Shown piece by piece: positions 20,456 through 36,110 of a DNA stretch of 36,110 nt (within the stretch, counting starts at the first letter, position 1; each line of letters starts with the position of its first letter). The notes beneath the pieces are model-generated. The model saw nothing but the letters and a program-made list of their open reading frames with translations. It was not told the DNA's origin and searched no databases. The position numbers and the translations under genes are program-made. The stretch covers positions 1 to 36,110 of IMG/VR virus record IMGVR_UViG_3300017768_002628; one strand, given 5' to 3'. This DNA comes from a virus.

Positions 20456-20458
20456 CAT

Positions 20459-20532: not shown

Positions 20533-20533
20533 T

Positions 20534-20553: not shown

Positions 20554-20574
20554 TAGGGTGTGACAGAACAACGC

Positions 20575-20760: not shown

Positions 20761-20762
20761 TT

Positions 20763-20786
20763 GCAGGTTGGTTCACCTGCTCTTTT
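20763..20786 (+). terminator. Terminator-like hairpin before talC
   Basis: GCAGGT / ACCTGC stem, loop TGGTTC, followed by TCTTTT, 17 bases before the talC ATG. It could end the noncoding RNA or act as an attenuator. Confidence 0.6.
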
Positions 20787-20802
20787 CCATATTTTTATTA
20801 AA

Positions 20803-21447: not shown

Positions 21448-21462
21448 GCATCTGCCTTTTCT

Positions 21463-21533
21463 GCGAGTGTGGTGTAGCGGTAACATCCCATCCTTCCAAG
21501 TTGGTGTCACGAGTTCGATCCTCGTCACTCGCT
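21463..21533 (+). tRNA. tRNA-Gly (anticodon TCC)
   Basis: Acceptor GCGAGTG / CACTCGC, D stem GTGT/ACAT, anticodon loop CTTCCAA, T arm ACGAG-TTCGATC-CTCGT. The anticodon stem CCATC/GTTGG has a T-T mismatch at the fourth pair (30-40). No encoded CCA. Reads GGA and GGG. Confidence 0.92.
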
Positions 21534-21560
21534 TTCGGATTGCCGAATAATCCGAATTTA
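21534..21560 (+). terminator. Hairpin terminator after tRNA-Gly
   Basis: TTCGGATT (21534-21541) / AATCCGAA (21549-21556), 8 perfect pairs, loop GCCGAAT, followed by a short TTTA. The T-tract is weak. Confidence 0.6.
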
Positions 21561-21567
21561 TACCTAG

Positions 21568-21575
21568 TATAAATA
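21568..21575 (+). promoter_or_regulatory. T4-type late promoter, perfect TATAAATA
   Basis: Exact TATAAATA directly after the hairpin terminator and about 105 bases before the next ATG, leaving a long 5' leader. Confidence 0.75.
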
Positions 21576-21580
21576 ATACA

Positions 21581-21657
21581 CCTTTTGTCAAATTGTATCA
21601 AAAGGCAACAAACGGGACAAGTCGAGTCCCTATTCATCTGCGGGTAATCACTCCGCA
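21581..21657 (+). promoter_or_regulatory. Three-hairpin 5' leader of barrel-like gene
   Basis: Three consecutive perfect stems: CCTTTTG/CAAAAGG (21581-21605), GGGAC/GTCCC (21614-21630), and TGCGG/CCGCA (21639-21657). An AGAGG ribosome site follows before the ATG at 21681. Such leaders can stabilise or control an mRNA. Confidence 0.6.
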
Positions 21658-21680
21658 AGTAACTAAAGAGGTTTTAAAAA

Positions 21681-22046
21681 ATGATCAAATCTGTATTCGC
21701 AGCAACTGCTGCTCTGTCTATGTCCGCAGGCGCTGCCCTTGCAGGTCCCTACGTCAACGTGGAAACCAATGCTGGTTGGACGGGAGATGACTACACCGGG
21801 GCAACTACAGACATTCACGTTGGCTATGAGGGCACTGTTGGTGCTACTGGATATTACGTCCAAGCGGGTCCTGCCGTGATTGCTGTGGATGGTGTCGAGA
21901 CCGAAACTCAGTTCTCTGGTAAAGCAGGAGTTGGCGTGCCCGTTACCGATGCTCTCGGAGTCTATGGTGAGGTTTCCTTCTTGACTGCCGATGACGAGGA
22001 TGACTTTGGTCTGGGTGGTAAACTGGGTGTGAAGTATTCCTTCTGA
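21681..22046 (+). CDS. Small outer-membrane beta-barrel-like protein, 121 aa
   Basis: Signal peptide MIKSVFAATAALSMSAGAALA. The mature part alternates polar and hydrophobic residues in several strands (PYVNVETNAGW, TDIHVGYEG, GYYVQAGPAVIAV, LGVYGEVSF) and ends LGVKYSF, with the terminal Phe characteristic of outer-membrane barrel proteins. Too small for a general porin; it might be a four- to eight-strand barrel. GC-ending codons (CCC TAC GTC AAC GTG) stand out from neighbours, suggesting high expression or host origin. Alone in a late unit with terminators on both sides. Confidence 0.75.
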   Translation: MIKSVFAATAALSMSAGAALAGPYVNVETNAGWTGDDYTGATTDIHVGYEGTVGATGYYVQAGPAVIAVDGVETETQFSGKAGVGVPVTDALGVYGEVSFLTADDEDDFGLGGKLGVKYSF

Positions 22047-22047
22047 G

Positions 22048-22076
22048 TTTACAACTAAACATCTAGGTGTTATAAT
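22048..22076 (+). promoter_or_regulatory. Sigma70-type promoter overlapping a terminator
   Basis: TTTACA (22048-22053), 17-base spacer, TATAAT (22071-22076). The transcription start would fall inside the terminator stem that begins at 22077. Confidence 0.7.
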
Positions 22077-22101
22077 GGGGTGCGACGGCACCCCCTTTTT
22101 T
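22077..22101 (+). terminator. Strong rho-independent terminator
   Basis: GGGGTGC / GCACCCC stem (7 pairs), GACG loop, then CTTTTTT. Ends the barrel-like gene transcript; the following promoter is nested on it. Confidence 0.9.
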
Positions 22102-22284
22102 ATGCGTTACCTTTTTCACCCTCTCACTGTCCTAAACTTAACGATCTGTGGATCTCTTGGGGTGATTGAATTTGTCCACACTAAAGCACATCACACATTG
22201 GAACAGGATGTTCACAGTCACGTCAGTCAAGCACTGAAAAAGAATCCAGAGTTAGCACGAGAAGCTTGTTGGGAGTTAGAATAA
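22102..22284 (+). CDS. Small membrane-type protein, 60 aa
   Basis: ATG at 22102 comes right after the terminator T-run, with no Shine-Dalgarno; from the nested promoter the leader would be about 20 bases. MRYLFHPLTVLNLTICGSLGVIEFVHT is a membrane segment or uncleaved signal, followed by a charged helical domain. His-rich (HTKAHHTLEQDVHSHV). No family recognised. Its stop overlaps the next start. Confidence 0.6.
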   Translation: MRYLFHPLTVLNLTICGSLGVIEFVHTKAHHTLEQDVHSHVSQALKKNPELAREACWELE

Positions 22285-22445
22285 TGAAAAAACAATATAA
22301 AGAAACTGCAGAATGTAAGAATCTCTATGATATGATTCTTGAGTTACATAAACGTATCGATGATCTTGAGTCTAATAATTCGGCAATGATTCGTCTTCTT
22401 GGGAACATAGATACTAAGTTAGGAAACCTTTCTAATGAAGATTAA
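22284..22445 (+). CDS. Small coiled-coil protein, 53 aa
   Basis: Starts in TAATG with the previous stop. MKKQYKETAECKNLYDMILE, then LHKRIDDLESNNSAMIRLLGN, shows heptad-like spacing of Leu and Ile. No signal or membrane segment. Overlaps the following gene by 11 bases. Function unknown. Confidence 0.5.
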   Translation: MKKQYKETAECKNLYDMILELHKRIDDLESNNSAMIRLLGNIDTKLGNLSNED

Positions 22446-22611
22446 TCTCTGGTATTCAAAGAGTATGCAGCAGTGGCGTTGGACTCTATCTGAAGAGTTC
22501 AAAAATGGTATCACAAAACTAGAACAACATTCTGGTCAAAGAATCTATCTACGTGATGCCATGGAAGATGTTGCTGATACCGTTGAATACATTCTTGATA
22601 AGAAAAAATGA
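22435..22611 (+). CDS. Small conserved protein, 58 aa
   Basis: MKINLWYSKSMQQWRWTLSE, then charged helices ending in EYILDKKK. The aromatic start and the length suggest a compact helical protein. Overlaps the next start (ATGA). Not recognised. Confidence 0.5.
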   Translation: MKINLWYSKSMQQWRWTLSEEFKNGITKLEQHSGQRIYLRDAMEDVADTVEYILDKKK

Positions 22612-22811
22612 ATCCATTGTCTCAATATAAAGAAGGTGGACTTCCAGTTGAACAAACTAATCTTCTGAGATTAATTAGTGAACTGGAAGGTTCTTCTCAA
22701 TTATGTAAATGGATGGGATTTATAGATGACATGGAAACCCTTGACAAAATAAAAAGGAAGTATTATACTATGTACTTCAAACTCAAAAAAGAACAACGCA
22801 TTCCTCAGTAG
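22608..22811 (+). CDS. Small conserved protein ending inside tRNA-Asn, 67 aa
   Basis: MNPLSQYKEGGLPVEQTNLL, followed by helical sequence and a basic C-terminus (KKEQRIPQ). Its last ten bases, including the TAG stop, are the 5' part of the tRNA-Asn acceptor and D region, so tRNA processing from this transcript would cut the mRNA. Function unknown. Confidence 0.55.
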   Translation: MNPLSQYKEGGLPVEQTNLLRLISELEGSSQLCKWMGFIDDMETLDKIKRKYYTMYFKLKKEQRIPQ

Positions 22812-22873
22812 CTCAGCGGCAGAGCCGACGACTGTTAATCGTCTGGTCGTAGGTTCAAATCCTACCTGGGGAG
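22802..22873 (+). tRNA. tRNA-Asn (anticodon GTT)
   Basis: Acceptor TCCTCAG / CTGGGGA with one G-T pair, D arm GCTC...GAGC, anticodon arm GACGA-CTGTTAA-TCGTC, T arm GTAGG-TTCAAAT-CCTAC. No encoded CCA. Reads AAC/AAT. Overlaps the 3' end of the preceding gene. Confidence 0.95.
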
Positions 22874-22876
22874 TTT

Positions 22877-22948
22877 GGGAGATTAGCTCAGAGGTAGAGC
22901 AACTCGTTTACACCGAGTGGGTCACTGGTTCGATCCCGGTATCTCCCA
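22877..22948 (+). tRNA. tRNA-Val (anticodon TAC)
   Basis: Acceptor GGGAGAT / ATCTCCC, D arm GCTC...GAGC, anticodon arm ACTCG-TTTACAC-CGAGT, T arm ACTGG-TTCGATC-CCGGT. Lies three bases after tRNA-Asn, so the two are one transcript. Reads GTA. Confidence 0.95.
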
Positions 22949-22956
22949 TATAAATA
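22949..22956 (+). promoter_or_regulatory. Late promoter TATAAATA right after tRNA-Val
   Basis: Exact TATAAATA beginning at the first base after the tRNA-Val discriminator, 31 bases before the ATG at 22987. Confidence 0.65.
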
Positions 22957-22986
22957 AGTGAAAACTGACGAAGTAATCACTATACA

Positions 22987-23244
22987 ATGGATAATATCCG
23001 AGTAAGATGTCGTTCCTGTGGAAAGGAAATAGAGGGACACCTTAATAAAACTGTTTCTTGTGGTTGTCCAAATATGACGACCATTCGTGGAGATAAGATT
23101 TCTGCTGTTGACTTATCTCTTGTTATGATGTTAAACTCTAAGCAACCAAAGACTAAAAAAAGTGTCTTGTCACAGGAAGATATCCTTTGGCAGGAGCAAA
23201 GAAGGCAACGCAAAGTTCGTAAGTTGGACTTTGAAGTTCGGTGA
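22987..23244 (+). CDS. Zinc-ribbon-like conserved cyanophage protein, 85 aa
   Basis: CRSCGK at residues 8-13 and CGCPN at 25-29 form a CxxC...CxC metal-binding pair. The following TTIRGDKISAVDLS and C-terminal WQEQRRQRKVRKLDFEVR complete a pattern I associate with a conserved cyanophage family. May bind nucleic acid. Late promoter 31 bases upstream; no good ribosome site. Ends with GTGA overlap into the next gene. Confidence 0.75.
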   Translation: MDNIRVRCRSCGKEIEGHLNKTVSCGCPNMTTIRGDKISAVDLSLVMMLNSKQPKTKKSVLSQEDILWQEQRRQRKVRKLDFEVR

Positions 23245-23462
23245 AAAAACTTTGGGAAATTTGGAAGTACTCATTAGGAAGTTTCAGTGACACAAAAACA
23301 GAAAATTATGATGATTGGGTTGCTATCGTTCGCACCTGTATATTTGTTAGTTACATGGTCACTAATATTTTTATTGTATCTGGAGTCATAAGACACTGGA
23401 ACAATTCGTCAGAGAATGAACACACACTTGACAACAGTGTAGCAGATTGCTACATTAAATAG
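23241..23462 (+). CDS. Small membrane protein, GTG start, 73 aa
   Basis: GTG at 23241 overlaps the previous stop. Charged N-terminus (KKLWEIWKYSLG), one membrane helix at about 27-49 (VAIVRTCIFVSYMVTNIFIVSGVI) and a polar tail. No family recognised. Confidence 0.5.
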   Translation: MKKLWEIWKYSLGSFSDTKTENYDDWVAIVRTCIFVSYMVTNIFIVSGVIRHWNNSSENEHTLDNSVADCYIK

Positions 23463-23487
23463 TATTGTAGACAATCTTTCTACCATT

Positions 23488-23643
23488 ATGCATCCCGACG
23501 ACTTACAGAACTGGAAAATTATTAAGGAAAAATTTGAGGAAAACGGCACAACAGACAACTTCTACTATAAAAGAGCTTGTGCTATTGTAAGAGGAGAACC
23601 TGATCCCATGGATAATTTGAAGAATGTCTCACAGGATGGATGA
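23488..23643 (+). CDS. Small conserved cyanophage protein, 51 aa
   Basis: MHPDDLQNWKIIKEKFEENG, then TTDNFYYKRACAIVRGEPDPM, a pattern I have seen in small cyanophage proteins. A TTAAATA, a poor late-promoter match, lies upstream. Soluble and mixed charge; one Cys. Function unknown. Confidence 0.6.
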   Translation: MHPDDLQNWKIIKEKFEENGTTDNFYYKRACAIVRGEPDPMDNLKNVSQDG

Positions 23644-23806
23644 AATAAAACCAGAGCACTACGTCACAGAAAAACAGTGCCAGGAAATGATCGATAAAGC
23701 TATTGACAAACATAATAAAACTGCTACAATTATAAGTGCCATCCTCGGATGTATCCTCCTTGGATTTTACTCTCATGGAGTTTTAGCCTTGGTAGGTCGC
23801 ACATGA
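23624..23806 (+). CDS. Small C-tail-anchored membrane protein, 60 aa
   Basis: Charged N-terminal helix (MDEIKPEHYVTEKQCQEMIDKAIDK), then a membrane segment at about 35-55 (TATIISAILGCILLGFYSHGVLA). ATG at 23624, or at 23636 within a GGATGGATGA overlap. Last gene before the terminator. Confidence 0.55.
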   Translation: MSHRMDEIKPEHYVTEKQCQEMIDKAIDKHNKTATIISAILGCILLGFYSHGVLALVGRT

Positions 23807-23828
23807 TGGCTGCGGTAACTTCCTTTGG

Positions 23829-23864
23829 TAGGTTCAGAGTTAGCGGCGATAGGAACCTATTTTT
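23829..23864 (+). terminator. Probable terminator before tRNA-Pro
   Basis: TAGGTTC (23829-23835) / GAACCTA (23853-23859), 7 pairs with a 17-base loop, followed by TTTTT. The long loop lowers confidence. Confidence 0.6.
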
Positions 23865-23941
23865 CGGGACGTAGCTCAGTTTGGTAGAGCACTCGCTTTG
23901 GGAGCGAGTGGCCGTAGGTTCAAATCCTATCGTCCCGACCA
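23865..23941 (+). tRNA. tRNA-Pro (anticodon TGG) with encoded CCA
   Basis: Acceptor CGGGACG / CGTCCCG then A-CCA, D arm GCTC...GAGC, anticodon arm CTCGC-TTTGGGA-GCGAG, T arm GTAGG-TTCAAAT-CCTAT. The only tRNA of the five with an encoded CCA. Reads CCA. Confidence 0.96.
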
Positions 23942-24571: not shown

Positions 24572-24600
24572 AAGGAGGGTTGTCATAACCCTCCTTTTTT
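24572..24600 (+). terminator. Strong rho-independent terminator before the sugar operon
   Basis: AAGGAGGGTT / AACCCTCCTT, 10 perfect pairs with GTCAT loop, followed by more T. Ends the early operon or attenuates the sugar operon. Confidence 0.9.
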
Positions 24601-24608
24601 AGTATAAT
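24580..24608 (+). promoter_or_regulatory. Sigma70-type promoter with -35 inside terminator loop
   Basis: TTGTCA (24580-24585), exactly 17 bases, TATAAT (24603-24608). The -35 is the last two stem bases plus the loop of the terminator. Leader to the ATG is about 18 bases. Confidence 0.75.
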
Positions 24609-24632: not shown

Positions 24633-25673
24633 ATGTCCGAGTATAAGAAGACAGCACTTGTTCTCGGTGCTGGTGGATTTATTGGTAGTCATATGGTAAA
24701 ACGACTCAGGTCTGAGGGATACTGGGTAAGAGGTATTGATTTAAAGTATCCAGAATATGGAGAGACCGAAGCAAATGAATTTGTTCAAGGTGATTTAACA
24801 GATCGTAATTTTGTAGATAGGGTAATTAGATTCAAGGGATATCTTGGAAATTTTTATGCAAGTGTACCTGAAAAATATCATTGTCCATTTGATGAGATCT
24901 ATCAGTTTGCTGCTGATATGGGTGGAGCAGGTTTTGTTTTTACGGGTGATAATGATTCAGACATCATGCACAACTCTGTCACCATTAATCTGAATGTTCT
25001 TAATGAACAAAGGAAGTTCAATGAAACTGTTGGAAATAAGACTAAGATTTTCTATTCTGGATCAGCATGTATGTATCCAGAGCATAACCAATTAGACCCC
25101 GATAATCCAGATTGCCGTGAAGAATCAGCATACCCAGCAAACCCAGACTCAGAATATGGATGGGAGAAACTCTTTAGTGAACGACTTTATCTTGCGTATA
25201 ATCGTAATCATGGCATTCCTATTAGGATTGCTAGATATCACAACATTTTTGGTCCCGAAGGAACCTGGGACGGTGGAAGAGAGAAGGCACCAGCTGCAAT
25301 CTGCCGTAAGGTCGCTTTCCTCCCGAAGGAGGGTGGAGCAATCGAGGTGTGGGGAGATGGCTTACAGACTCGTTCCTTCCTGTTCATTGACGAATGCATT
25401 GAAGCAACTCGAAGACTGATGGACAGTGACTTTATGGGTCCTGTAAACATTGGTTCTGAAGAAATGGTTACTATCAATCAACTGGTTGATATTGCTGCTA
25501 AGGTAGCATCTAAAGATGTTCAGAAGATTCATATTGATGGTCCTCTTGGTGTTCGTGGTCGTAACTCAAACAATGATCTCATCCGTGAGAAACTTGGTTG
25601 GGATTATTCTCAAACTCTTGAAGAAGGTATTCGTAAAACATATACTTGGATTCAATCTCAAATAAATTTATGA
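24633..25673 (+). CDS. GDP-mannose 3,5-epimerase-like SDR enzyme, 346 aa
   Basis: Extended SDR enzyme. Nucleotide site GAGGFIG at 12-18. [23 protein letters not shown] (Y175, K179), [20 protein letters not shown] and [18 protein letters not shown] match plant GDP-mannose 3,5-epimerase almost motif for motif. In plants this enzyme makes GDP-L-galactose and GDP-L-gulose from GDP-D-mannose. First gene of the sugar operon, overlapping gmd by ATGA. A related C3/C5 epimerase on another nucleotide sugar is possible, but motif conservation and gmd neighbours favour GDP-mannose. Confidence 0.85.
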
Positions 25674-26680
25674 AAAAGGCATTTATAACTGGAGTTACAG
25701 GTCAGGATGGATCCTACCTGGCAGAATTTTTGTTGAGTAAGGGTTACAGGGTATGTGGTATCAAGAGGAGAAGTTCCTCTTTCAATACTACAAGAATTGA
25801 TGAGGTATTTGAATCTAATAAAAATTTTGAATTATACTATGGAGATCTTACAGATTCTACAAATCTCATTAGTTTAATTCAGAAAATTCAACCTGATGAA
25901 ATTTACAATTTAGGAGCACAGAGTCATGTAAAAGTATCATTTGAAACTCCAGAGTATACAGCAAATAGTGATGCTATGGGAACTCTTCGTATTTTGGAGG
26001 CAATACGTATTCTTAAAATGGAGAATACAGTTAAATTTTATCAAGCATCCACTTCTGAAATGTTTGGTAAAGTTCAACAAATTCCACAGACTGAATTGAC
26101 TCCTTTCTATCCAAGATCACCTTATGGCGTGGCAAAATTATATGCACACTGGATTACGAAAAACTACAGAGAAGCATATGGAATTCATGCAAATTCTGGA
26201 ATCTTATTTAATCATGAAAGTCCAAGAAGAGGTGAAACTTTTGTGACTAAAAAAATCACAATGGGATTAAATAAAATTAAAAATGGAAAAGATAATTGTT
26301 TACATCTTGGAAATTTAGATGCTAAAAGAGACTGGGGTCATGCTAAAGATTATGTTGAAGCAATGTGGCTGATGTTACAGCAGGAAAACCCAGATGATTA
26401 TGTTATTGCAACAGGTGAACAATATTCAGTTAGAGATTTTGTTGAGGAAGCAGCACTTCATTTTGGTATGCAAATTACCTGGAGAGGTGAAGGATTAAAT
26501 GAAATTGGATATGATATCTTTACTGGAAAAGAGATTATTAAAGTTAACTCTAAATATTTCAGACCTGCTGAAGTTGAAACTTTATTAGGTGATGCCACCA
26601 AGGCAAGGGAAAAATTAGGTTGGATACCTAAAACTTCTTTTAAAAAATTAGTTGAGGAAATGTGTACTCATGAACAGTAA
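25670..26680 (+). CDS. gmd: GDP-mannose 4,6-dehydratase
   Basis: Converts GDP-D-mannose to GDP-4-keto-6-deoxy-D-mannose, the branch point to GDP-fucose, GDP-rhamnose and GDP-perosamine. ATG at 25670 overlaps the preceding stop. [11 protein letters not shown] at residues 7-17, [28 protein letters not shown] (Y152, K156) and [14 protein letters not shown] are diagnostic of Gmd. 336 aa, slightly shorter than E. coli Gmd (373). Followed directly by fcl with an 11-base overlap, so GDP-fucose is the clear product. Confidence 0.96.
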
Positions 26681-27635
26681 GAGTCGAGTTTATGTTGCTG
26701 GTAATACTGGATTAGTAGGATCAGCATTAGTTCGTATGCTCCATAGAAAGGGGTATACTAATATTCTCTCCTCCCCATCCTCTCATTGGGATTTGCGTAG
26801 GCAAGAGGATGTTGAGAGATTTTTTAAATTAAATGAACCAGAATATGTTTATCTTGCTGCTGCCAAGGTTGGTGGAATTGGTGCTAACAGTGATTATCCT
26901 GCACACTTCATCTATGATAATTTGATGATTCAATCAAACATCATTCATGCTGCTCGCAAGTTTGGAGTTAAAAAACTCTTGTTTCTTGGATCTTCTTGCA
27001 TCTATCCAAAGATGTGTGAGCAACCTATTAAGGAAGAATATTTGATGACAGGTTCTTTAGAACCAACGAATGATGCCTATGCGATTGCAAAGATTGCTGG
27101 GATTAAGACGTGCCAGGCATATCGTAAGCAATATGGGTTTAATGCAATCTCTTTGATGCCTACGAATTTGTATGGTCCTAATGATAATTTTGATTTAGAG
27201 TCATCTCATGTTCTTCCTGCAATGATTGCCAAGTATCACTATGCAACTGTTGACGGATATACTATTGATATGGGTGGTCCTTGGTGGCCAGATGTAAAAC
27301 TTTGGGGTGACGGTTCGGCACGGAGAGAGTTTCTTCATGTTGATGATCTTGCCGAAGCTTGTTTTACATGTATGAGAGATTACGACTCCTCAGAACCAAT
27401 TAATGTTGGAACAGGAGAAGACATTACTATTAAAGAACTTGCGAGTATTGTTTCTGATGTGGTTGGGCATCCAGGTCAAACAACATGGGACACTTCTAAA
27501 CCTAATGGGACACCAAGAAAAGTTCTTAATGTTGATAAGATTAAATCTCTTGGTTGGAAACCAAAAATTGAATTAAAAAATGGAATTAAAAATACTTATG
27601 ATTGGTATAAAGAAATCTTAATGGAGAAAGAATAA
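26670..27635 (+). CDS. fcl: GDP-L-fucose synthase (epimerase/reductase)
   Basis: Uses GDP-4-keto-6-deoxymannose and NADPH to make GDP-L-fucose. ATG at 26670 ([20 protein letters not shown]). GSSCIYPK supplies Ser and Cys; YAIAK gives Y137 and K141, next to the E. coli numbering 136/140; [11 protein letters not shown] and SHVLPA (His) complete the site. 321 aa, same size as WcaG. TAATG overlap with the next glycosyltransferase gene. Confidence 0.96.
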
Positions 27636-28567
27636 TGGAATTAAGTGTAGTTTTGGGTGGAAGAGATGATAACTATGGAGAACAATTTATCGAAAGATTA
27701 GAACAAGCAGTATCACATAATCTTAAACTGCTTGATAGTTCGGGCATTGATTATGAAATGATCGTGGTTGACTTCAATCCGATTAATGAGCAGTATCTCC
27801 ATGTCAATTCTCTGATGGAGGAAGTTCTTCAACATCCAAGAGTGAAGAATTTGATTGTCGATCCCTCAGTGTCTGTTGCTGAAGACTTAACACCTTCAAC
27901 TTACTATGAGTATTTTGCAAAAAATGCTGGTTGTAGAATTTCAACAGGAGATATGATCTTCATTACTAACTCTGACATTATGCTGACAGAAAAGTTAATT
28001 GAAGAAATTAAAAAAGAATTTGATAGTGATGAGAAGAATGATGTTTTTTATAGAGTTAGATATAGAGGCGATATTTCATTAGGAGATTCTCCTTCACTAT
28101 CTCCTAGACTAATTCCTAATGGTGATGTTTTAACTGGACCATTAAATGGATGGGGGGATCCTGAACAAGTTTTGGATTTGTATGAAAATCTAAAATATCA
28201 TAATCTTCTTGGTGAAGATCCAGTTATTGGTTTGTGGTCTGGAGATGCATGTATGTTCTCAAGAGAAGTATTCTTCAATGTTGCCACAGCATATAATGAA
28301 GGTGATTTTAGTCATAGGACTAACAAAAATCAATCAAATATGGATACAGAAATTCTATGGAATTTAAAACTTAAAGGTAAAGAACTTAAATTGATAAATG
28401 CTCCTTATTATCACATTTATCATGGACACCCCCTCCCTAGAGATAATAGTAGTTATACTAAATTAAGGTATGAAAATAAATCTGACTGGGGATTTATTAA
28501 GTATAATAAGGTAAGAGTTAATGATAATACTGAAATTATTGTCGATGGAGAAATAGAATGGGATTAA
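27635..28567 (+). CDS. GT-A (GT2-like) glycosyltransferase, 310 aa
   Basis: N-terminal VVLGGRDDNYGEQFIERLEQAV resembles the donor-binding strand and helix of GT2 enzymes. ITNSDIM (D114) is the likely variant DXD motif, and later GLWSGDACMFSREVF and NMDTEILWNLK match acceptor-side motifs of GT-A folds. Soluble, no membrane segment. Donor sugar cannot be read from sequence; the setting suggests a GDP- or UDP-sugar. Confidence 0.75.
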   Translation: MELSVVLGGRDDNYGEQFIERLEQAVSHNLKLLDSSGIDYEMIVVDFNPINEQYLHVNSLMEEVLQHPRVKNLIVDPSVSVAEDLTPSTYYEYFAKNAGCRISTGDMIFITNSDIMLTEKLIEEIKKEFDSDEKNDVFYRVRYRGDISLGDSPSLSPRLIPNGDVLTGPLNGWGDPEQVLDLYENLKYHNLLGEDPVIGLWSGDACMFSREVFFNVATAYNEGDFSHRTNKNQSNMDTEILWNLKLKGKELKLINAPYYHIYHGHPLPRDNSSYTKLRYENKSDWGFIKYNKVRVNDNTEIIVDGEIEWD

Positions 28568-29472
28568 AAAAGTTTATTGTTACAACGACCATCAATAGTC
28601 CAACTTTAGCAACAAGAAAGTTTGCTGCGATGGAAGATTGGACTCTCATCGTGGTGGGTGACACAAAAACTCCACATTTGGAGTATGAGGAACTAGATTG
28701 TATTTACCTCTCTCCAGAGATTCAACAAACCATTGATAGTGATTTGTCTGATTCAATTGGATGGAAGAGTATTCAAAGAAGAAATATTGGATTTCTTTAT
28801 GCATACAAGCAAGGTGCAGACATTGTTGCCACAGTTGATGATGATAATATTCCCTATGATGATTGGGGTAAAAATCTTTTAGTTGGTCAGACAATTGAAT
28901 GTGATTTGTATGAACCATCTCAGAATGTATTTGATCCATTGTCTGTAACAAATACTCCAGATATTTGGCACAGAGGTTTTCCAATTGATTTGTTGGGAAA
29001 AAGACATGAAGTTGAGTACAAAGGTAAAGTAAAACGTAAGGTATTAGTTCAGGCAGATCTATGGGATGGTGATCCTGATATTGATGCTATGGCTAGACTT
29101 ACAATGAAACCCATAGTAAAATACAATGTAGAGAAACCATATTGTTCAAATAAGATCGCACCATTTAATAGTCAGAATACTTTCTTAGCAAGAGAAGTAT
29201 TGCCATACTATGCTGTGCTTCCTCATGTAGGAAGAATGGATGATATCTGGGGGTCATATATTCTGCAATATTATTTCCCTAACTCGGTGATCTATAATAA
29301 AGCATCGGTGTATCAGGATAGAAACGTACAAGATTTGGTGACTAATCTTGAAAAAGAAGTAATTGGTTATCGTAATACTTACGATTTTATCAATAACCTT
29401 AAAAAGTATATGGACAATCTTCCTGAAGATGCAAGACACTTCTATAAAACTTACATGAAAGCATACAAGTGA
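28558..29472 (+). CDS. STELLO/DUF288-like glycosyltransferase, 304 aa
   Basis: VDDDNIPYDDW (D94-D96) is a metal-binding triple Asp. DIWHRGFPIDLLGK and later RMDDIWGSYILQ are characteristic of the STELLO (DUF288) family, in which they follow the same order. No membrane anchor, unlike plant STELLO proteins. Overlaps the previous gene by 10 bases. Activity and sugar unknown. Confidence 0.7.
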   Translation: MGLKKFIVTTTINSPTLATRKFAAMEDWTLIVVGDTKTPHLEYEELDCIYLSPEIQQTIDSDLSDSIGWKSIQRRNIGFLYAYKQGADIVATVDDDNIPYDDWGKNLLVGQTIECDLYEPSQNVFDPLSVTNTPDIWHRGFPIDLLGKRHEVEYKGKVKRKVLVQADLWDGDPDIDAMARLTMKPIVKYNVEKPYCSNKIAPFNSQNTFLAREVLPYYAVLPHVGRMDDIWGSYILQYYFPNSVIYNKASVYQDRNVQDLVTNLEKEVIGYRNTYDFINNLKKYMDNLPEDARHFYKTYMKAYK

Positions 29473-30167
29473 AAAACTTAGCGATTGGATTTTCATCTCT
29501 CAGACCCAAACAATATTCTGAAGAGGTGTGTGATTTTAGAGAGAAAGAGTATTTTGTTTGTATTAGACAGATACTAAAGATTTTACCACAGTCATTTGAT
29601 TTCATTTTATGTGAGAATACTATTGACTCTGAATCTGAGATTAAAAACAATGATTTGAAAAGTCTCATTAAAGATGTTGATCTATGTGCTATGGGCAGTG
29701 AATCAAACATTGGTTCTAATAATAAAGGAGTCGGTGAGTTGTTACAACTTAAGACTGCACTTAAACAAGTTAATTCATCTGAGTATGAAAATATCTCATA
29801 TATTACAACAAGAGGTATTTTGACTTGTCCATATGTATTTGAGAAGACCGAGCAACTTGAAAAGCAAGCTTTACTTGGAAATCCAGATTTTATTTGGATG
29901 AATGGAAGAGTTGCTCCAGCAACGTCTAATCTTTTCAATGATCAATTTTTCTCCATGAAATCAAATGTCATGGTAGATTTTTCCAATTTTAGTTTCAATA
30001 GATTTGATTACCTCATCAGTAATCATATTGGCTCTGAATACAATCTTTATGATTTTGTTGTTCAAAATAACATTGATTATGAAGAACTAAATTATCTTGG
30101 TAGAATTCGTAATGACTGGAGTGCAAATGGAGTTCCATTTGATGCTAATAATTTTCATTTTTGTTAG
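29469..30167 (+). CDS. Hypothetical protein in the sugar operon, 232 aa
   Basis: GTG at 29469 overlaps the previous stop (GTGA). Mixed alpha/beta sequence with NIGSNNKGVGELLQLKTALKQV in the middle, a pattern like surface-glycan enzymes that sense a polymer or carry a GT-like fold. No clear DXD or nucleotide motif and no signal peptide. Its position between glycosyltransferase and methyltransferase genes indicates a role in glycan assembly. Not identified. Confidence 0.5.
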   Translation: MKNLAIGFSSLRPKQYSEEVCDFREKEYFVCIRQILKILPQSFDFILCENTIDSESEIKNNDLKSLIKDVDLCAMGSESNIGSNNKGVGELLQLKTALKQVNSSEYENISYITTRGILTCPYVFEKTEQLEKQALLGNPDFIWMNGRVAPATSNLFNDQFFSMKSNVMVDFSNFSFNRFDYLISNHIGSEYNLYDFVVQNNIDYEELNYLGRIRNDWSANGVPFDANNFHFC

Positions 30168-30175
30168 AGGTAACT

Positions 30176-30949
30176 ATGATTGAAGGATGGAGTAATTTAG
30201 ATAAGGACGAGACTAGTTTTCCTTATGCTGACATTTGTAATGAAGCAGTGTCTGATGATGAAGTATTTGATAAATTTAAAAACGATCCAAGGTACAATGC
30301 CATTCTTGAGCATGTATCTCCAGAGCAAGGATTGAAGTACATTGAAGGAATTCAACAGTATGAGTTGGATCAAGATCTCATTGAGGCATTTAAAGAAAAT
30401 GATTTGTATGGTGGATCGTCAAAAGTTGGATATGATTTACCATTTGGTCTAATCTCACCATCTACACTAAGATATATCCAAAATGCATTGGACATTTCAT
30501 ATTTTTACGGCGAGGGAGATCTCAATAGAATTGTCGAAATTGGTGGAGGATATGGTGGATTATGTAAAACCATTAGTTGTCTTTGCGATTTTGAAGAGTA
30601 TCACATTTATGATATTGAACCAGCATCAAAATTGCAAGAAAAATATCTCTCTAAGTTTAATATCACCGGAAAAACAATTCACCATTCAACCATTAATAAG
30701 TTGGAGGACATTGATCTAGTTGTTAGTAACTATGCTTATTCTGAATTGAATGAGGAATTGCAATCTCTTTATTATGAAAATATTATTGCCAATAGTAAAA
30801 AAGTTTATATGATTCTAAACAGGGGACAAGTGAGCAGACAAGTTTTCCTTGACAGAGCAGAGAAGGATTTTGACATCAATGTTGAAAAGGTTCTTGACTT
30901 TTGGCCACCAAACGGTTATCTTTACTATACAACAATGACAAGAAAATGA
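30176..30949 (+). CDS. Putative sugar O-methyltransferase, 257 aa
   Basis: SAM-binding motif VEIGGGYGGLCKT at 120-132 and acidic IYDIEP after it. ATG at 30176 follows a good AGAGG site; an upstream TTG is ignored. GYDLPFGLISPSTLRYIQ before motif I is typical of the putative sugar O-methyltransferase family that caps or modifies O-antigen. Overlaps the aminotransferase start (ATGA). Confidence 0.75.
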   Translation: MIEGWSNLDKDETSFPYADICNEAVSDDEVFDKFKNDPRYNAILEHVSPEQGLKYIEGIQQYELDQDLIEAFKENDLYGGSSKVGYDLPFGLISPSTLRYIQNALDISYFYGEGDLNRIVEIGGGYGGLCKTISCLCDFEEYHIYDIEPASKLQEKYLSKFNITGKTIHHSTINKLEDIDLVVSNYAYSELNEELQSLYYENIIANSKKVYMILNRGQVSRQVFLDRAEKDFDINVEKVLDFWPPNGYLYYTTMTRK

Positions 30950-32109
30950 AAATCCGAGATACCGTATTACCAGTCCTTCAACCTGTTGGTGGTGATGAAG
31001 AGATCAAAAACTTGTCTGAATCTATCACTAATGGGTGGTGGGGAAAAGGTCCAAAAGTTGCTGAGTTTGAAAAACAATTCGCAAAAATGGTTGGTGCAAA
31101 GTATGCAGTAGCAGTGACTAGCAACACCGCAGGACAAGATCTTGTTATCAAAGCACTTGGTCTTAAGGGGTGTGACATCATTAGTCCAACTATGTCTTTT
31201 ATGACTACTGCGGTGGTTCCCTTGTGGAATGATTGCACATCTACGATTGTAGATGTTTTGGATGATACCTTGTGTATCGATCCAGAAGATGTTCGTAGAA
31301 AATTGAAACCAGATACAAAGGCAATCATTGCAGTCAATCTTGCAGGAGTTCCTGCCCCCATTGATGAAATTCGTAAATTCTATGATGGGTTTATTTTGGA
31401 AGATTGTGCCCACAGTTGCTATACATCTGGGGCTGGATCAAAAGGAGATGCTGCTGTATGGTCCTTTCAGGCAGTTAAAACAATGCCTTGTGGTGATGGA
31501 GGCATGATCACCACCAATGACAAAGAACTCTATGAAAAACTTGTCCCTATGACTTGGATGGGAATTACAAGCACGTTTTCTCGCACAAATGGTTTGGGTG
31601 GTACTCCTGGGTATTCTTGGGATTATGATGTTGATACTTTAGGGTACAAATGTTATATGATAGATCTTCAAGCAGCAATTGCATTGGAGCAAATGAAAAA
31701 GTTGTCAAAACATCTTGAGTGGAGGAGACACATTCAAAAGTGTTATAATGAAGGATTGTCTGGTTTGATCAGAACTCCTGCATGGTCTGAAACAGTTCAG
31801 CACTATGGTGCTCGCGTTCCTTCTTTGGAACGTAATGAACTGATTAATTATCTTGCTGATAAAAAAATCCATACTAGTGTCCATTACAAACCACTTCATA
31901 AACATAAAATCGTAAATCAGAATCGGGAATATGATGTTGCTGATAAAGAATGGAAAAAATTGATTAGTCTTCCTTGCCATCCAGGTATGACACAGGAGGA
32001 CATTGATTATGTGATCTATTGGATTAAACAATATTATCATAAGAAATCGATTGTATCGTATGATGGTAAAACTACCATCTATCATGGCACCATAGTAGTA
32101 GAGGATTGA
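30946..32109 (+). CDS. DegT/DnrJ/EryC1/StrS-type sugar aminotransferase, 387 aa
   Basis: PLP enzyme that adds an amino group to a keto sugar nucleotide. K178 in AVKTMPCGDGGM is the Schiff-base Lys, and EDCAHS (E152, D153, H156) is the cofactor-binding motif. NGWWGKGPKVAEFE at the start is the family signature. Because Gmd makes GDP-4-keto-6-deoxymannose nearby, a perosamine-synthase role is plausible but unproven. The intact Lys argues against a ColD-like dehydratase. Confidence 0.85.
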   Translation: MKIRDTVLPVLQPVGGDEEIKNLSESITNGWWGKGPKVAEFEKQFAKMVGAKYAVAVTSNTAGQDLVIKALGLKGCDIISPTMSFMTTAVVPLWNDCTSTIVDVLDDTLCIDPEDVRRKLKPDTKAIIAVNLAGVPAPIDEIRKFYDGFILEDCAHSCYTSGAGSKGDAAVWSFQAVKTMPCGDGGMITTNDKELYEKLVPMTWMGITSTFSRTNGLGGTPGYSWDYDVDTLGYKCYMIDLQAAIALEQMKKLSKHLEWRRHIQKCYNEGLSGLIRTPAWSETVQHYGARVPSLERNELINYLADKKIHTSVHYKPLHKHKIVNQNREYDVADKEWKKLISLPCHPGMTQEDIDYVIYWIKQYYHKKSIVSYDGKTTIYHGTIVVED

Positions 32110-32110
32110 T

Positions 32111-32974
32111 ATGTATTTGGATCTTTACAAAATTGATGGCACTAAAAACTTAGATGCCAATCCATGTTTTGGTATCGATGAAACATACCCAAACTTTCAA
32201 GAGAAGTTAAGTGAGTTCAAAGAACTCTTGGTCGATCTAGTTGATAAAAATGAATCAAAAACCTTTTACAAGTTTGGTGATGGGGATTATTTCTTTTTAA
32301 GAGGTGAGTCTATTGGGAGTGCAACGCCAGGAAGACGTGCCTTAAGTAAACCATATAGTCAGATTGATCACCAGGCATTCAAGGATGGTGCTAGAGAGTG
32401 TGATTATTACACTTGTGAGATTTACCCCGATAATCGTCAAAAGTTTAGTGAGGTTCTTCCTGGAGTGAGTATTGATTATCCAGCAGAGTTTGGGTATGGG
32501 TTAGTTACTAACAAGTGGTTGCTTCAAACCTTTGCTGGAAAGATTGGTTTGATTGGTGCAGATATGAAAATGAATATCATTCGCAATGTTATTGAAGCAC
32601 CTCAGTATCAAGACTATCTTGGACTTGAGCAGTTTGAGGATTACGTATCTCTTCCTCAGAAATTTGCTTGTGATGATTTAGATGCAACTGAAAGACTGGT
32701 TGGAGAGCAACTTAAAAATTCAAGTTCTAAGATCTTTCTTATGGGAATGGGTCACGTTAAATCTGGTCTTATACATAGACTTAAGAAGTATACTGATGCT
32801 GTATTTCTTGATGTCGGAGCTTCAATTGATGCTCTCGCAGGCATCATTGATGTCGAACGACCATATGCTGGTGATTGGGTTAACTACCAGATTGATGAAC
32901 CAGAATTATATGGTGGTGTAGATTATCTTGCTTATAATGGTAAGGGTAGTCATATCCTTTTAGAAAGAAACTAA
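32111..32974 (+). CDS. GT-D-fold (DUF1792-like) glycosyltransferase, 287 aa
   Basis: YKFGDGDYFFLRG (F55-G-D57-G-D59) corresponds to the RFGDGE metal/UDP-binding motif of GT-D enzymes. Later KIFLMGMGHVKSGLIH and VFLDVGASIDALAG match the conserved C-terminal strand and DxG region. In streptococci these transfer glucose in glycan chains. Variation from E to D in the motif is visible. Soluble; donor unknown. Confidence 0.65.
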   Translation: MYLDLYKIDGTKNLDANPCFGIDETYPNFQEKLSEFKELLVDLVDKNESKTFYKFGDGDYFFLRGESIGSATPGRRALSKPYSQIDHQAFKDGARECDYYTCEIYPDNRQKFSEVLPGVSIDYPAEFGYGLVTNKWLLQTFAGKIGLIGADMKMNIIRNVIEAPQYQDYLGLEQFEDYVSLPQKFACDDLDATERLVGEQLKNSSSKIFLMGMGHVKSGLIHRLKKYTDAVFLDVGASIDALAGIIDVERPYAGDWVNYQIDEPELYGGVDYLAYNGKGSHILLERN

Positions 32975-32976
32975 TA

Positions 32977-33747
32977 ATGATTTTATACGTCTATCTCCAA
33001 GGTGGTTTGGGAAACCAAATGTTTCAATATGCAGCAGGAGTTTCTGCACTGAAAGAATATCCACAGTTTACAGAACTCCGTCTTGATTCTTCCTTCTATC
33101 AGAATCAGGAAAGAAAGATTATTGTAAATGGTTTAACTGGACGTGGTTATGATCTTGATATTTTAAATATCAAACATAATATCGCAGAAGATGCACCAGA
33201 AGGTGCGACATTACTTCAAGGATGGTTTCAAAATTTAAAAGAGTTTGAAAATGTTGTTGATGAGATCAGAAAACAATTTACTTTCTCTGTAGAATTTTCG
33301 GAAGCAACCAAGAATGTCGAAGAACAAATTTCTAATGTAGAAACTTCAGTTGCCATTCATGTTAGAAGGGGCGACTATGTTACCAATCCAACAGCACTTG
33401 CACATCATGGTGTTCTTGATAAGGCATACTATGATCGTGCGATCAAACTGATGGAATCTAAGTATCCTGATCCTCACTATTTTGTATTCTCTGAGGATGT
33501 TGAATGGTGTGTGGAAAATATCAAAACAGATAAACAAATTACTTTTGTTGGATCTGAATGTAATGATATTAAGGATAGCGGGCATCTTTACTTGATGACT
33601 AAGTGTAAGAACCATATCATCGCAAACTCATCATATTCTTGGTGGGGTGCATTTTTAGGAAACAGTGAGTTCACTATTGGACCAGAGAGATGGAATCGTG
33701 AGGCATCTGGATCTGATCATATGTTAGAGGAATGGGTTAAGTTATGA
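32977..33747 (+). CDS. GT11-type alpha-1,2-fucosyltransferase-like enzyme, 256 aa
   Basis: N-terminal QGGLGNQMFQYAAG and H128-V-R-R-G-D-Y134 are diagnostic of GT11 and related fucosyltransferases; RRGDY binds GDP-fucose. ANSSYSWWGAFLG and GPERWN near the end also match the family. In bacteria such enzymes add alpha-1,2-linked fucose to galactose. Its donor would be the product of the neighbouring gmd and fcl genes. Confidence 0.9.
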   Translation: MILYVYLQGGLGNQMFQYAAGVSALKEYPQFTELRLDSSFYQNQERKIIVNGLTGRGYDLDILNIKHNIAEDAPEGATLLQGWFQNLKEFENVVDEIRKQFTFSVEFSEATKNVEEQISNVETSVAIHVRRGDYVTNPTALAHHGVLDKAYYDRAIKLMESKYPDPHYFVFSEDVEWCVENIKTDKQITFVGSECNDIKDSGHLYLMTKCKNHIIANSSYSWWGAFLGNSEFTIGPERWNREASGSDHMLEEWVKL

Positions 33748-34601
33748 TCAATCTTTATTATTCAGAAGCATATTGGGGTCACTCCGCAACGATGAACGGA
33801 CCTCACAAGGTTGTAGATAATCTAATCAAAAGTCTTATTCAAGAAAAAATAGATTATGCAATTAACGAAGAGAAGTATAATCATAATTTTCTGATACAAT
33901 ATGATGCGATAGCACACGAAAAACATTCTAAGATTGAACAGGAGACTACAATCATTGGACCACAGGTTTGGTTATTTGATGGGTATGGTCAATTTTTGAT
34001 TGAAAATCAAAATTACTATAAGAAATTAATCGCACCATCACAATGGGTAAAAAATAAATTTATCGACAAGTTTAATTTACCAGAGGAAAAGATTGCTATT
34101 TGGCCAGTGGGTATTGAAGAGTTTAATAATGTAAGAGAACCAAGTTATGATTGTCTAATTTATTTTAAGAGAAGAGATGTGAGTGAATTGTCAGCAGTCA
34201 AAAAATTTCTGCTTGGTAGAGGGTTATCATATCGAATGGTAGAGTATGGTGGATATGATGAAGTTGGTTTCCGTAATCTTGTGAATCAGGCAAAATTCTG
34301 TTTTCTCATCAATGGAACAGAAAGTCAAGGTATTGCAGTTCAAGAAATAATGTCGATGGGTGTACCTATTATCACATGGGACCTCAAAGAATGGTTGGAT
34401 CAAGGAGAAGCATATCGTGTTCCTGCTACTTCAGTTCCTTTTTGGGATGAGAGGTGTGGAGAAAGATTTTATTCAATTGATAAATTAGAGGAGACATTTG
34501 ACAATTTTTATGCTAGGATAAATGATTATGACCCAAAAGCATATATTAAGGATAATTTATCTTTTGAGATGTCAGTTAAAACATTATTAGATATACTATG
34601 A
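33744..34601 (+). CDS. GT-B (GT4-like) glycosyltransferase, 285 aa
   Basis: GTESQGIAVQEIMSMGVP carries an EX7E motif (E193, E201), typical of retaining GT4 enzymes. PQVWLFDGYGQF and IAPSQWVKNKFIDKFNLPEEKIAIWPVGI fit the domain linker of GT-B folds. A compact enzyme missing part of the usual N-domain. Overlaps both neighbours by ATGA. Donor unknown. Confidence 0.75.
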   Translation: MINLYYSEAYWGHSATMNGPHKVVDNLIKSLIQEKIDYAINEEKYNHNFLIQYDAIAHEKHSKIEQETTIIGPQVWLFDGYGQFLIENQNYYKKLIAPSQWVKNKFIDKFNLPEEKIAIWPVGIEEFNNVREPSYDCLIYFKRRDVSELSAVKKFLLGRGLSYRMVEYGGYDEVGFRNLVNQAKFCFLINGTESQGIAVQEIMSMGVPIITWDLKEWLDQGEAYRVPATSVPFWDERCGERFYSIDKLEETFDNFYARINDYDPKAYIKDNLSFEMSVKTLLDIL

Positions 34602-35299
34602 AAATCTGTATTCTGACTATTGCTACTAATAAGTATCTGCAGTTTGTAGAAAAACTGTATGAGGATATTTCTGAAAAGTTCTGCCCTGGAGCAGAAATTA
34701 ATTGTCTTCTATTCACTGATCACGAAATTGAAGAGTGTGGTGATAATGTTAGAGTTCACTATATTGATCATGAACCTTGGCCAATGCCTACTCTGAAGCG
34801 TTATAACTATTTTGTTAAGGAGAAGGACTTTATCTTTGATCATGATTATTGCTTCTACTTTGATGCAGATATGCGTATTGATGGTTTAGTAGAGGCAGAA
34901 GAAGTTTGTGGTGATCTTGTTGCAACACGTCATGGATATCAATCATTGATCGATTCATCATCACAATCTTTTGATAGGAATCCAAAGTCACTTGCTTATG
35001 TCCCTTTTGATCAGAAGACCATTAGTTACTATGCTGGTGGTTTTAATGGTGGTAAAACTGAAAGTTTTATGAAGATGGCAGAAATTATTGCCAATAATGT
35101 GAATAAAGATCTTAAGAAAGGTGTTATTGCACTCTGGCACGATGAAAGTCACATGAATAGGTATCTGATTGATAATCCACCTACCTTAGATCTTGATCCG
35201 ACCTATTGCTATGCTGAAGAATTTATAGGAACTGATTATCCTTACAAACCCGGAAAAATTATTGCTTTGAAGAAAAATCATGCTGCACTTAGATCTTAG
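34598..35299 (+). CDS. GT6 (ABO-family) glycosyltransferase, 233 aa
   Basis: The motif order is that of GT6: KRYNYFVKEKDF, then CFYFDADMRI with D89-A-D91, YYAGGFNGGKTESFMKMAEII, ALWHDESHMNRYL and LDPTYCYAEE. GT6 enzymes add alpha-1,3 galactose or N-acetylgalactosamine to galactose. Most bacterial members have NXN in place of DXD, but this one keeps an acidic DXD, as vertebrate enzymes do. No membrane anchor, as usual in bacteria. Three genes downstream of the GT11 fucosyltransferase-like gene's start. Confidence 0.88.
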   Translation: MKICILTIATNKYLQFVEKLYEDISEKFCPGAEINCLLFTDHEIEECGDNVRVHYIDHEPWPMPTLKRYNYFVKEKDFIFDHDYCFYFDADMRIDGLVEAEEVCGDLVATRHGYQSLIDSSSQSFDRNPKSLAYVPFDQKTISYYAGGFNGGKTESFMKMAEIIANNVNKDLKKGVIALWHDESHMNRYLIDNPPTLDLDPTYCYAEEFIGTDYPYKPGKIIALKKNHAALRS

Positions 35300-35927
35300 A
35301 GAAATCCCTGCAGTTTATCTGAATCTTGCTGAGCATACTGAGAAAAATAAAAGTATGCAAAAACTGATTAAAGACTGTGGATTTAAAAATTCAATTCGTG
35401 TTGAAGGTGTATCTCGTCCAGATAATCCATTGATTGGATGTTCATTGGCACACCTTAGAGGATTGGAGGAGATTGATCCTCCTTTTATTCTTTTTGAAGA
35501 TGATTGTGAAATCAAAAACTTTGAACCAGAAATTGAAGTTCCCAAAAATGCTGATGCAGTTTATCTTGGAGTTTCATCATGGGGAAGAATGAACGGACAC
35601 TCTGGTCCTTTTGTTCAATATGAAAAGATAAGTGATAATTTTCATCGTGTTTATAATATGCTTGGGGCACATGCCATATTGTATCTGACAGAAGATTATG
35701 TTAGAATGTGTCAAAGAATAAGTTTTCATGCTGGCAATGTGATCGGTAGTTATCAGGATATTGGATTTGCTGAGATACAACGTTGGTTCAATGTATATAC
35801 ATTTGATGATCCAATGTTCTATCAAAACAGTTCTTATCAAGCAACTGTAAATCCACTTACAAGTTATCCAACACAGGAGTGTTTTAACTTTAATAAAAAT
35901 TATTTTTTACCTGAGAGAGTTTTATGA
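35280..35927 (+). CDS. GT25-like glycosyltransferase, 215 aa
   Basis: [21 protein letters not shown], then [23 protein letters not shown] and [10 protein letters not shown] (E73-D74-D75) are the GT25 pattern used by LPS glycosyltransferases. Overlaps the GT6 gene by 20 bases and the next start by ATGA. Donor commonly UDP-galactose in the family. No signal peptide. Confidence 0.78.
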
Positions 35928-36110
35928 AATCATTAGTTACTGGAGGATGTGGATTTATTGGATCTCATCTAGTAGATAGATTGGTAAAATTAGGACATGA
36001 AGTTGTAGTTTTGGATAGAGTAAAGCATCACGATCCAAATCCAAAAGCAACATATTATCTTTATGATTTATCTGAAAAATATACAAAATATATTCATCTT
36101 TTTGAAAGTG
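35924..36110 (+). CDS. NAD-dependent sugar epimerase/dehydratase, 3' end beyond window
   Basis: Reads [20 protein letters not shown], an SDR Rossmann signature (GGCGFIG), then [10 protein letters not shown]. Only the first 62 residues are present; the rest lies outside. Starts with ATGA overlap on the GT25-like gene. Likely another nucleotide-sugar enzyme of the same operon; substrate cannot be judged from this fragment. Confidence 0.75.

Follow-up and report, generated by a model that had tools for sequence, protein, structure and literature searches.

We analysed a 36,110-base viral record (IMGVR_UViG_3300017768_002628 of IMG/VR), here called the window, which holds a cassette of glycosylation genes extending from position 24633 to the window end. 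The cassette consists of 14 genes, all on the plus strand and the last of them truncated, and at its 13 internal junctions the neighbouring genes overlap by up to 20 bases or are separated by up to 8. The left part of the window carries genes for ribonucleotide reductase, gnd, zwf, transaldolase and ferredoxin, together with five transfer RNAs (tRNAs) at 20458-23941, near the cassette, and resembles T4-like cyanophages. A previous sequence-only reading had placed Gmd, Fcl and two glycosyltransferases, of families GT11 and GT6, within 25670-35299, and the four genes were indeed found there in one unbroken plus-strand string. The operon, which that reading began at 25670, starts instead at 24633 with a gene for GDP-mannose 3,5-epimerase (GME) and runs off the window end.

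The GME gene (24633..25673) was identified by its PDB matches: the five sequences matched at E <= 1e-20 (best E 9.4e-85) are without exception GDP-mannose 3,5-epimerases, and the window protein has the Cys, YxxxK and Lys motifs that we take to be catalytic in this enzyme. In the phage records inspected, this gene is labelled as UDP-glucose 4-epimerase, NAD-dependent epimerase or dehydratase, or nucleotide-sugar epimerase. It shares four bases with gmd (25670..26680), a GDP-mannose 4,6-dehydratase gene scoring 558.2 bits with TIGR01472 (cut-off 415). The third gene, fcl (26670..27635), has GDP-L-fucose synthase NF047922 as its best match (453.6 bits) and contains GSSCIYP and YAIAK, which we assume to be Fcl motifs.

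The GT11 gene (32977..33747), of the alpha-1,2-fucosyltransferase family, scored 113.3 bits with PF01531 (cut-off 23.9, E 1.7e-32), hence the family assignment made by the sequence-only reading holds by hidden Markov model. Its protein carries HVRRGDY, which fits the HxRRxD motif; in 31 sequences R130, R131 and D133 are invariant and H128 nearly so, and 266 of the 307 reading frames matching the GT11 profile with more than 100 bits have H-x-R-[RK]-x-D. An AlphaFold2 model built from an alignment of 31 phage sequences reached a mean predicted local distance difference test score (pLDDT) of 93.4. In support of the earlier assignment, it resembles fucosyltransferases: the top VIA-align match was NodZ (Z 13.4, root-mean-square deviation (rmsd) 3.6, 210 residues aligned), followed by POFUT1 (Z 12.9), Arabidopsis FUT1 (AtFUT1, Z 12.2) and then FUT8, with GT9 and the heptosyltransferases below them at Z about 10-11. 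The Foldseek and VIA-align lists for this model held no solved GT11 structure, which counts neither way. The model supports a member of the fucosyltransferase superfamily with the GT-B fucosyltransferase fold, a fold that by itself gives neither linkage nor donor. GDP-L-fucose is the usual donor of GT11 enzymes.

The GT6 gene (34598..35299), of the ABO-transferase family, was likewise upheld by its profile, PF03414, with 95.2 bits (cut-off 25, E 4.2e-27). Its nearest PDB sequence is BoGT6a of Bacteroides ovatus (4ayj, E 6.5e-29), and the best match to a human ABO transferase has E 2.2e-24. The protein has the metal-binding DXD motif (DAD, aligned to BoGT6a positions 95-97), WHDES, which includes the catalytic Glu, and the triplet AGG at the donor site. 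We took a census of these residues in 88 phage GT6s, the window one included, aligned with BoGT6a. The DXD motif was present in 87 (with one gap), WHDES in 88, H122 in 88 and E216 in 87, the last two being residues to which we assign an acceptor role in BoGT6a. AGG was found in 80 of the 88. Judged from these residues, the phage enzymes look catalytically intact, and they are presumably metal-dependent, because DXD is kept. BoGT6a transfers GalNAc to 2'-fucosyllactose, has NXN in place of DXD and does not need metal (PMC3961637); it shares the family, WHDES, H122 and AGG with the window GT6. Since the AGG triplet is the same as in this GalNAc-transferring enzyme, UDP-GalNAc can fairly be guessed to be the donor used by the phage GT6s that have AGG. 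WbnI of E. coli O86 belongs to the same family and is likened to the window GT6 on that ground.

Among 18 aligned bacterial GT6 loci, some of them duplicate genes, NXN was found in 16 and DXD in 2 (L327 and L345), and W replaces H122 in 10. Fourteen of these loci (L322-L326 and L336-L344) are NXN GT6s in Gastranaerophilales and other genomes of that phylum, and 10 of the 14 have W for H122 and P at position 134, suggesting from sequence a different acceptor for those ten. Two reading frames matching the GT6 profile were observed within one cassette in L037 and L038 (9989 and 10690) and in L046 (3901 and 6027).

Immediately 3' of GT6 there is a gene (35280..35927) that matches phrog_24091, a PHROG of unknown function, with 274.9 bits. 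Its AlphaFold2 model (pLDDT 88.4) matched COLGALT1, a GT25 enzyme, with Z 15.1, rmsd 2.6 and 168 residues aligned; it is also near other GT-A folds (beta-1,4-galactosyltransferase 8xlz, Z 12.5; B4GALNT1, Z 12.4), and its structural matches include mimivirus R655 and, at Z 10.9, the capsid glycosyltransferase of PBCV-1. An hhalign comparison with the annotated GT25 of phage P-SSM2 gave a probability of 97.4. At E <= 1 the window protein matched no Pfam family; of the 28 sequences in its alignment, 12 had weak matches to PF01755 (best E 0.0011). We call it only GT25-like, because it does not match the GT25 Pfam profile and the support comes from fold and profile comparison. A galactosyltransferase at this position would fit a module that also makes its own galactose acceptor.

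The closest described counterpart of the cassette is the lipopolysaccharide (LPS) cluster on the hli03 side of P-SSM2 (PSSM2_257-271, T4-GC 252-266). In the same order, P-SSM2 has gmd, a nucleotide-sugar epimerase (462 bits with the Fcl profile), GT11, a GT4-like gene, GT6 (63.7% identical to that of the window), an adjacent GT25-like gene and a following epimerase. The last of these is represented in the window by the start of a nucleotide-sugar epimerase gene (35924..36110, PF01370 with 36.1 bits, cut-off 20.9), cut by the window end and equal in position to PSSM2_270. GT11 and GT6 of P-SSM2 are named as such in GenBank, and its string ends in a GT25; the counterparts of this closing gene and of the hli03 side would fall past the window end. 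The P-SSM2 stretch differs from the window in having neither GME nor a match to a DegT aminotransferase, and in one added gene between GT11 and GT6, an FkbM-type methyltransferase. P-SSM5 has the gene set and order of P-SSM2. According to Sullivan et al. 2010 (PMC3037559), seven LPS genes including T4-GC 260, 265 and 266 are found together in three phages and may have linked functions; by their GenBank notes these three are the GT11, the epimerase and the GT25 of P-SSM2. By its sequence, the window cassette matches a P-SSM2-type cyanophage LPS cluster, with shared genes in shared order, near tRNAs, in what appears to be a T4-like cyanophage. The gene combination, so judged, is not new to cyanophages, P-SSM2 and P-SSM5 having it, and by 2014 a paper had mentioned GT6 for two cyanophages (PMC3961637). 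Searches of open-licence literature turned up no H/ABO-like product of a cyanophage.

We give a probability of roughly one half to the following reading: the cassette is a P-SSM2-type surface-glycan cassette of a cyanomyovirus that remodels a host surface glycan, probably with a branched group carrying alpha-1,2-linked L-fucose or L-galactose and alpha-1,3-linked GalNAc or Gal. Two rare GDP sugars would be made from GDP-mannose, GDP-L-fucose by Gmd and Fcl and GDP-L-galactose by GME. A terminal galactose would come from the GT25-like enzyme or from the host; GT11 would add to it an alpha-L-fucose or alpha-L-galactose, probably 1,2-linked, and GT6 would next add alpha-1,3 GalNAc or Gal. The enzymes would act in the cytoplasm on lipid-linked or LPS precursors of the host, and so alter the cell surface during infection, most likely blocking superinfection by rival phages. 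Cytoplasmic action is proposed because the visible part of the cassette has no clear membrane segment by hydropathy and hence no evident flippase, polymerase, transporter or lipid-primer gene. We favour the host surface over the virion as the target, the role being a matter of argument; remodelling of the host surface has been proposed for P-SSM2 (PMC2984593). The confidences that we give to this and to the other readings are not mutually exclusive. The H/ABO-like trisaccharide of the sequence-only reading is plausible for these enzymes and a fair hypothesis for part of the product, with linkage, acceptor and donor not readable from the sequence. The term minimal set was too simple, since genes for GT25-like, GT4-like and GT2-like enzymes, an aminotransferase and an O-methyltransferase stand in the same operon. 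Human FUT1 or FUT2 followed by the ABO transferase have the same logic of GT11 and then GT6, the relation being at the level of the family for GT6 and resting on the Pfam family for GT11; the human pathway differs in that its acceptor and cell biology are unrelated.

We searched 50,697 phage records by tblastn and found GT6 in 71 and GT11 in 102, of which 64 and 90, respectively, are named as Synechococcus, Prochlorococcus or cyanophage. The order of genes was then evaluated in 79 GT6 loci taken from the best 80 of 117 relatives. GT11 lay upstream of GT6 in 50 of the 53 loci with at least 9.3 kb of upstream sequence, the remaining 26 having been left out of this count for their short flanks, and after de-duplication at 95% it lay within 8 kb upstream in 37 of 42. 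Looking up to 5 kb downstream of GT6, we found a GT25-like gene in 71 of 77 loci, directly adjacent in 48, which makes it the usual 3' companion. In six isolates GT11 directly adjoins GT6, with a four-base overlap between the two genes. GT6 is seldom without GT11 and GT11 is often without GT6, as expected if GT6 acts after GT11, which we regard as weak evidence.

For comparison with hosts we used the family group reached through a CsoS2-bearing genome of the cyanobacterial phylum, presumed to be the picocyanobacterial host family, from which 251 genomes were drawn out of a larger group. They had GT6 in 1, GT11 in 26 and gmd over the cut-off in 165. Because GT6 is in only one of the 251, it would add something that the presumed hosts mostly cannot make, and on sequence grounds it seems to belong to the phages rather than to have been borrowed from a host; an origin of GT6 from the host was rejected for now for the same reason. 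The lone host-family GT6 (L345) has QNC instead of AGG and forms a long branch beside the window-type phage GT6s, in a tree built without vertebrate sequences; it may itself be phage-derived. It stands directly after a reading frame that looks like the end of SecA.

Between fcl and GT11 there are six genes, and one more lies between GT11 and GT6; all seven were left out of the sequence-only reading. A weak GT2-like glycosyltransferase (27635..28567) scored 22.2 bits with PF00535 (cut-off 23.3). Two unassigned genes follow, at 28558..29472 and 29469..30167, with no Pfam or NCBIfam family at E 0.01 and no PHROG at 0.001; they were matched in 3 and 4 of 84 loci, respectively. A putative sugar O-methyltransferase (30176..30949, TIGR04371 with 54.5 bits, cut-off 44) precedes a sugar aminotransferase of the DegT/DnrJ/EryC1 family (30946..32109, PF01041 with 265.9 bits, cut-off 19.8), for which the nearest PDB sequence is ArnB (E 3.9e-48) and none of seven NCBIfam matches reaches its cut-off. 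GDP-perosamine was considered as a fate of the Gmd product and rejected: the best match of the aminotransferase is ArnB, and no named perosamine synthase was among its eight PDB sequences at E <= 1e-30. The next gene (32111..32974) is a possible glycosyltransferase (PF03808, WecG/TagA, 18.1 bits, cut-off 27.4). The gene between GT11 and GT6 (33744..34601) encodes a weak GT4-like glycosyltransferase (PF13439 with 21.7 bits, cut-off 28.5; PF13692 with 20.1 bits, cut-off 27).

Upstream of the GME gene there is a candidate cis-regulatory wcaG RNA (RF01761, 24463..24565, plus strand), scoring 35.6 bits, below the gathering score of 42, with E 0.0015, or 2.8e-5 in a short stretch. Five of nine relatives, which were chosen partly for similar upstream sequence, had the same RNA over the gathering score 5' of the epimerase gene, as did two of six phage stretches, those of Bellamy and SynMITS9220M01. 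According to Weinberg et al. 2010 (PMC2864571), wcaG RNAs of cyanophages appear to regulate exopolysaccharide or high-light genes. Six bases past the RNA begins a terminator-like hairpin (24572-24596) with a -35 box in its loop and TATAAT 17 bases on (24572..24608, plus strand in all), a terminator-promoter chimera that on its sequence is likely the operon boundary and promoter. This layout was found 5' of the epimerase in 25 of 76 loci, the window included, with stems that differ. A scan for such chimeras returned two in the window (24572-24608 and near 9042) versus none in 10 shuffles of the window; it returned one in the ACG-2014f stretch and none in those of P-SSM2, Bellamy and SynMITS9220M01, the latter two of which have the epimerase. 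Promoter-like sites in total were at chance level (57 versus 53.5 expected). Since the wcaG RNA, the hairpin and the promoter-like site are directly upstream, the operon start is suggested to lie just before the epimerase gene. The wcaG RNA thus precedes the promoter-like site, and it could function as an attenuator or mark where the preceding transcript ends. A second RNA, manA (RF01745, 102.9 bits), was found at 20534-20729, between tRNA-Arg and the transaldolase gene.

Several points weigh against the host-surface reading that we prefer. Its linkages, acceptor and role are inferred from sequence and predicted fold. The Fcl score is beneath the curated cut-off of 500, hence the earlier claim that Gmd and Fcl make GDP-fucose stood for Gmd, which is over its cut-off, and for Fcl only as a best match (453.6 versus 500); none of 12 related phage records reaches that cut-off, so the phage Fcl is probably a divergent branch. 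The donor triplet AGG is not universal, its first position being Q in 7 and I in 1 of the 88 phage GT6s, and 41 of the 307 GT11-profile reading frames do not have the H-x-R-[RK]-x-D motif, which the window GT11 has. The largest 19-residue hydropathy, 1.66 in the gene at 32111-32974 and at most 1.22 in all other cassette genes, is a crude test for membrane proteins, and the cassette is cut at the window end. GT11 and GT6 are separated by the GT4-like gene in the window and by up to 8.3 kb in relatives.

GT11 is, moreover, common anyway: counted within 10 kb on the downstream side, it accompanied 31 of 46 GME anchors and 20 of 33 gmd anchors (32 of 44 and 13 of 21 after de-duplication at 95%). 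Against these two baselines before de-duplication, the GT6 loci (50 of 53) gave Fisher p values of 0.0006 and 0.00015, respectively, for loci that are related to one another. Inside the GME- and gmd-anchored sets, GT11 accompanied GT6 in 2 of 2 and 6 of 6 loci, and the association was not significant (p 1.0 and 0.077; 1.0 and 0.26 when de-duplicated). Therefore the pairing of GT11 and GT6 is alone no proof of one pathway, and we rejected the idea that it proves one, as the excess over GME- and gmd-anchored loci is only modest.

The alternative that best survives is that GT11 and GT6 act on different residues of one large O-antigen-like repeat and build no ABO-like branch. The operon has many further glycosyltransferases, the spacing of GT11 and GT6 and the genes intervening between them differ among relatives, and GT11 includes other linkages, such as the alpha-1,3 linkage of HhFT2 (PMC4202792). 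We consider it nevertheless somewhat unlikely: GT6 without an upstream GT11 is rare (3 of 53), Fuc-alpha-1,2-Gal is given as the acceptor of the two bacterial GT6s BoGT6a and WbnI (PMC3961637, PMC4202792), and the six isolates have the two genes adjoining with their four-base overlap.

A second alternative concerns the donor. GT11 may use GDP-L-galactose rather than GDP-L-fucose, because GME is the first gene of the operon and accompanies this GT11 more often than gmd does. The conversion of GDP-mannose to GDP-L-galactose by GME, and the acceptance of GDP-L-galactose by fucosyltransferases, an Arabidopsis alpha-1,2 enzyme included, are both reported (PMC8787198). The H-like unit would in that case be L-Gal-alpha-1,2-Gal, with gmd and fcl serving another fucosyl or amino-sugar step. 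We considered 13 contigs picked from the nearest GT11 matches (at least 54% identity in one search, or 88% in another), the near-twin L073 being left out. In these contigs, which are fragments, GME was present in 11 and gmd in 8, with GME but not gmd in 5, gmd but not GME in 2, and no contig lacking both. In the contig of L170 (G582), which has the closest GT11, the epimerase gene at 31468-32494 is split into two matches that overlap and differ in frame (query 1-52 and 48-345): it is broken there, or there is a sequencing error.

We also searched 12 whole records chosen from the 71 GT6 phage records, the 12 including the near-duplicates P-SSM2 and P-SSM5, for gmd and fcl. Six had gmd over the cut-off and six did not, and in five of the latter (Bellamy, S-CAM9, S-PRM1, SynMITS9220M01 and S-8S56, not B23) GME, GT11 and GT6 stand side by side in the order of the window. 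Unlike the window, these five have no gmd above the cut-off, score 80-109 bits with the Fcl profile versus 421-467 in gmd-bearing records, and have GT6s 31-35% identical to that of the window; the donor triplet is QGC in the two inspected, and a different gene follows GT6 in the three scanned. S-SCSM1 shares with the window, in one phage, gmd, GDP-L-fucose synthase, GDP-mannose 3,5-epimerase and an alpha-1,2-fucosyltransferase, and GT6 is not named in the passages concerned (PMC9602691).

The donor question was also evaluated on a GT11 tree of 110 sequences, of which 79 were kept at 80% and 43 at 60% de-duplication, loci with ambiguous donor context being dropped. The label of the donor route changed 8 times versus 24.2 (standard deviation 2.2) in shuffles, with 0 of 500 shuffles as low; a looser labelling gave 12 changes versus 36.3. 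At 60% the signal was weaker (8 versus 13.1, standard deviation 1.7, 4 of 500). Cassettes are inherited together, so the signal of the tree may be shared ancestry. Besides, gmd and fcl are in the same operon as a GT11 whose family usually takes GDP-L-fucose, and gmd, frequent in the host family, could supply the gmd-less phages, hence we hold an L-galactose donor to be doubtful. A more speculative extension, which we think improbable, is that cyanophages have a phage-specific donor system for an ABO-like glycan in which the donor is interchangeable: GDP-L-fucose from gmd and fcl or GDP-L-galactose from GME would feed GT11, and GT6, nearly absent from hosts, would cap the product. Infected cells or virions of some phages would then display the H/A antigen in an L-galactose form.

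Third, the enzymes may be soluble and decorate capsid or tail proteins of the phage in the cytoplasm, and not host LPS. No membrane export gene is evident in the visible cassette, the GT25-like model resembles the mimivirus and PBCV-1 enzymes named above, and the cassette is followed by annotated tail-fibre genes, at a distance of about 1 kb in ACG-2014f and about 9 kb in P-SSM2. We judge glycosylation of the virion to be quite unlikely, as a candidate phage protein target was not identified, a common fold is uninformative on the target, and published clusters are interpreted as LPS genes (PMC3037559, PMC2984593). Finally, the view that these are functionless passenger genes filling the head, raised as open by Sullivan et al. 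2010 (PMC3037559), is hardly credible: the ratio of non-synonymous to synonymous substitution rates (dN/dS) was 0.065-0.154 in eight pairwise comparisons (three of GT6, two of GT11, one each of gmd, the epimerase and the GT25-like gene), so that the five tested cassette genes are under purifying selection, catalytic residues are kept in 87-88 of the 88 GT6s, the gene order recurs in many contigs, and the wcaG RNA and the promoter-like element stand at the cassette front.

The LPS clusters of cyanophages have been a subject of discussion from 2010 at the latest, and have been called possible stuffer DNA (PMC3037559). If the P-SSM2-type cassette described here makes a defined, capped glycan, there would be a concrete product, fucose or L-galactose together with a terminal GalNAc or Gal, on infected picocyanobacteria or on virions. 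With GT6 nearly absent from the presumed hosts, such a glycan would cleanly mark phage activity and would allow superinfection exclusion, protection from grazing or glycosylation of the virion to be tested directly in the ocean.

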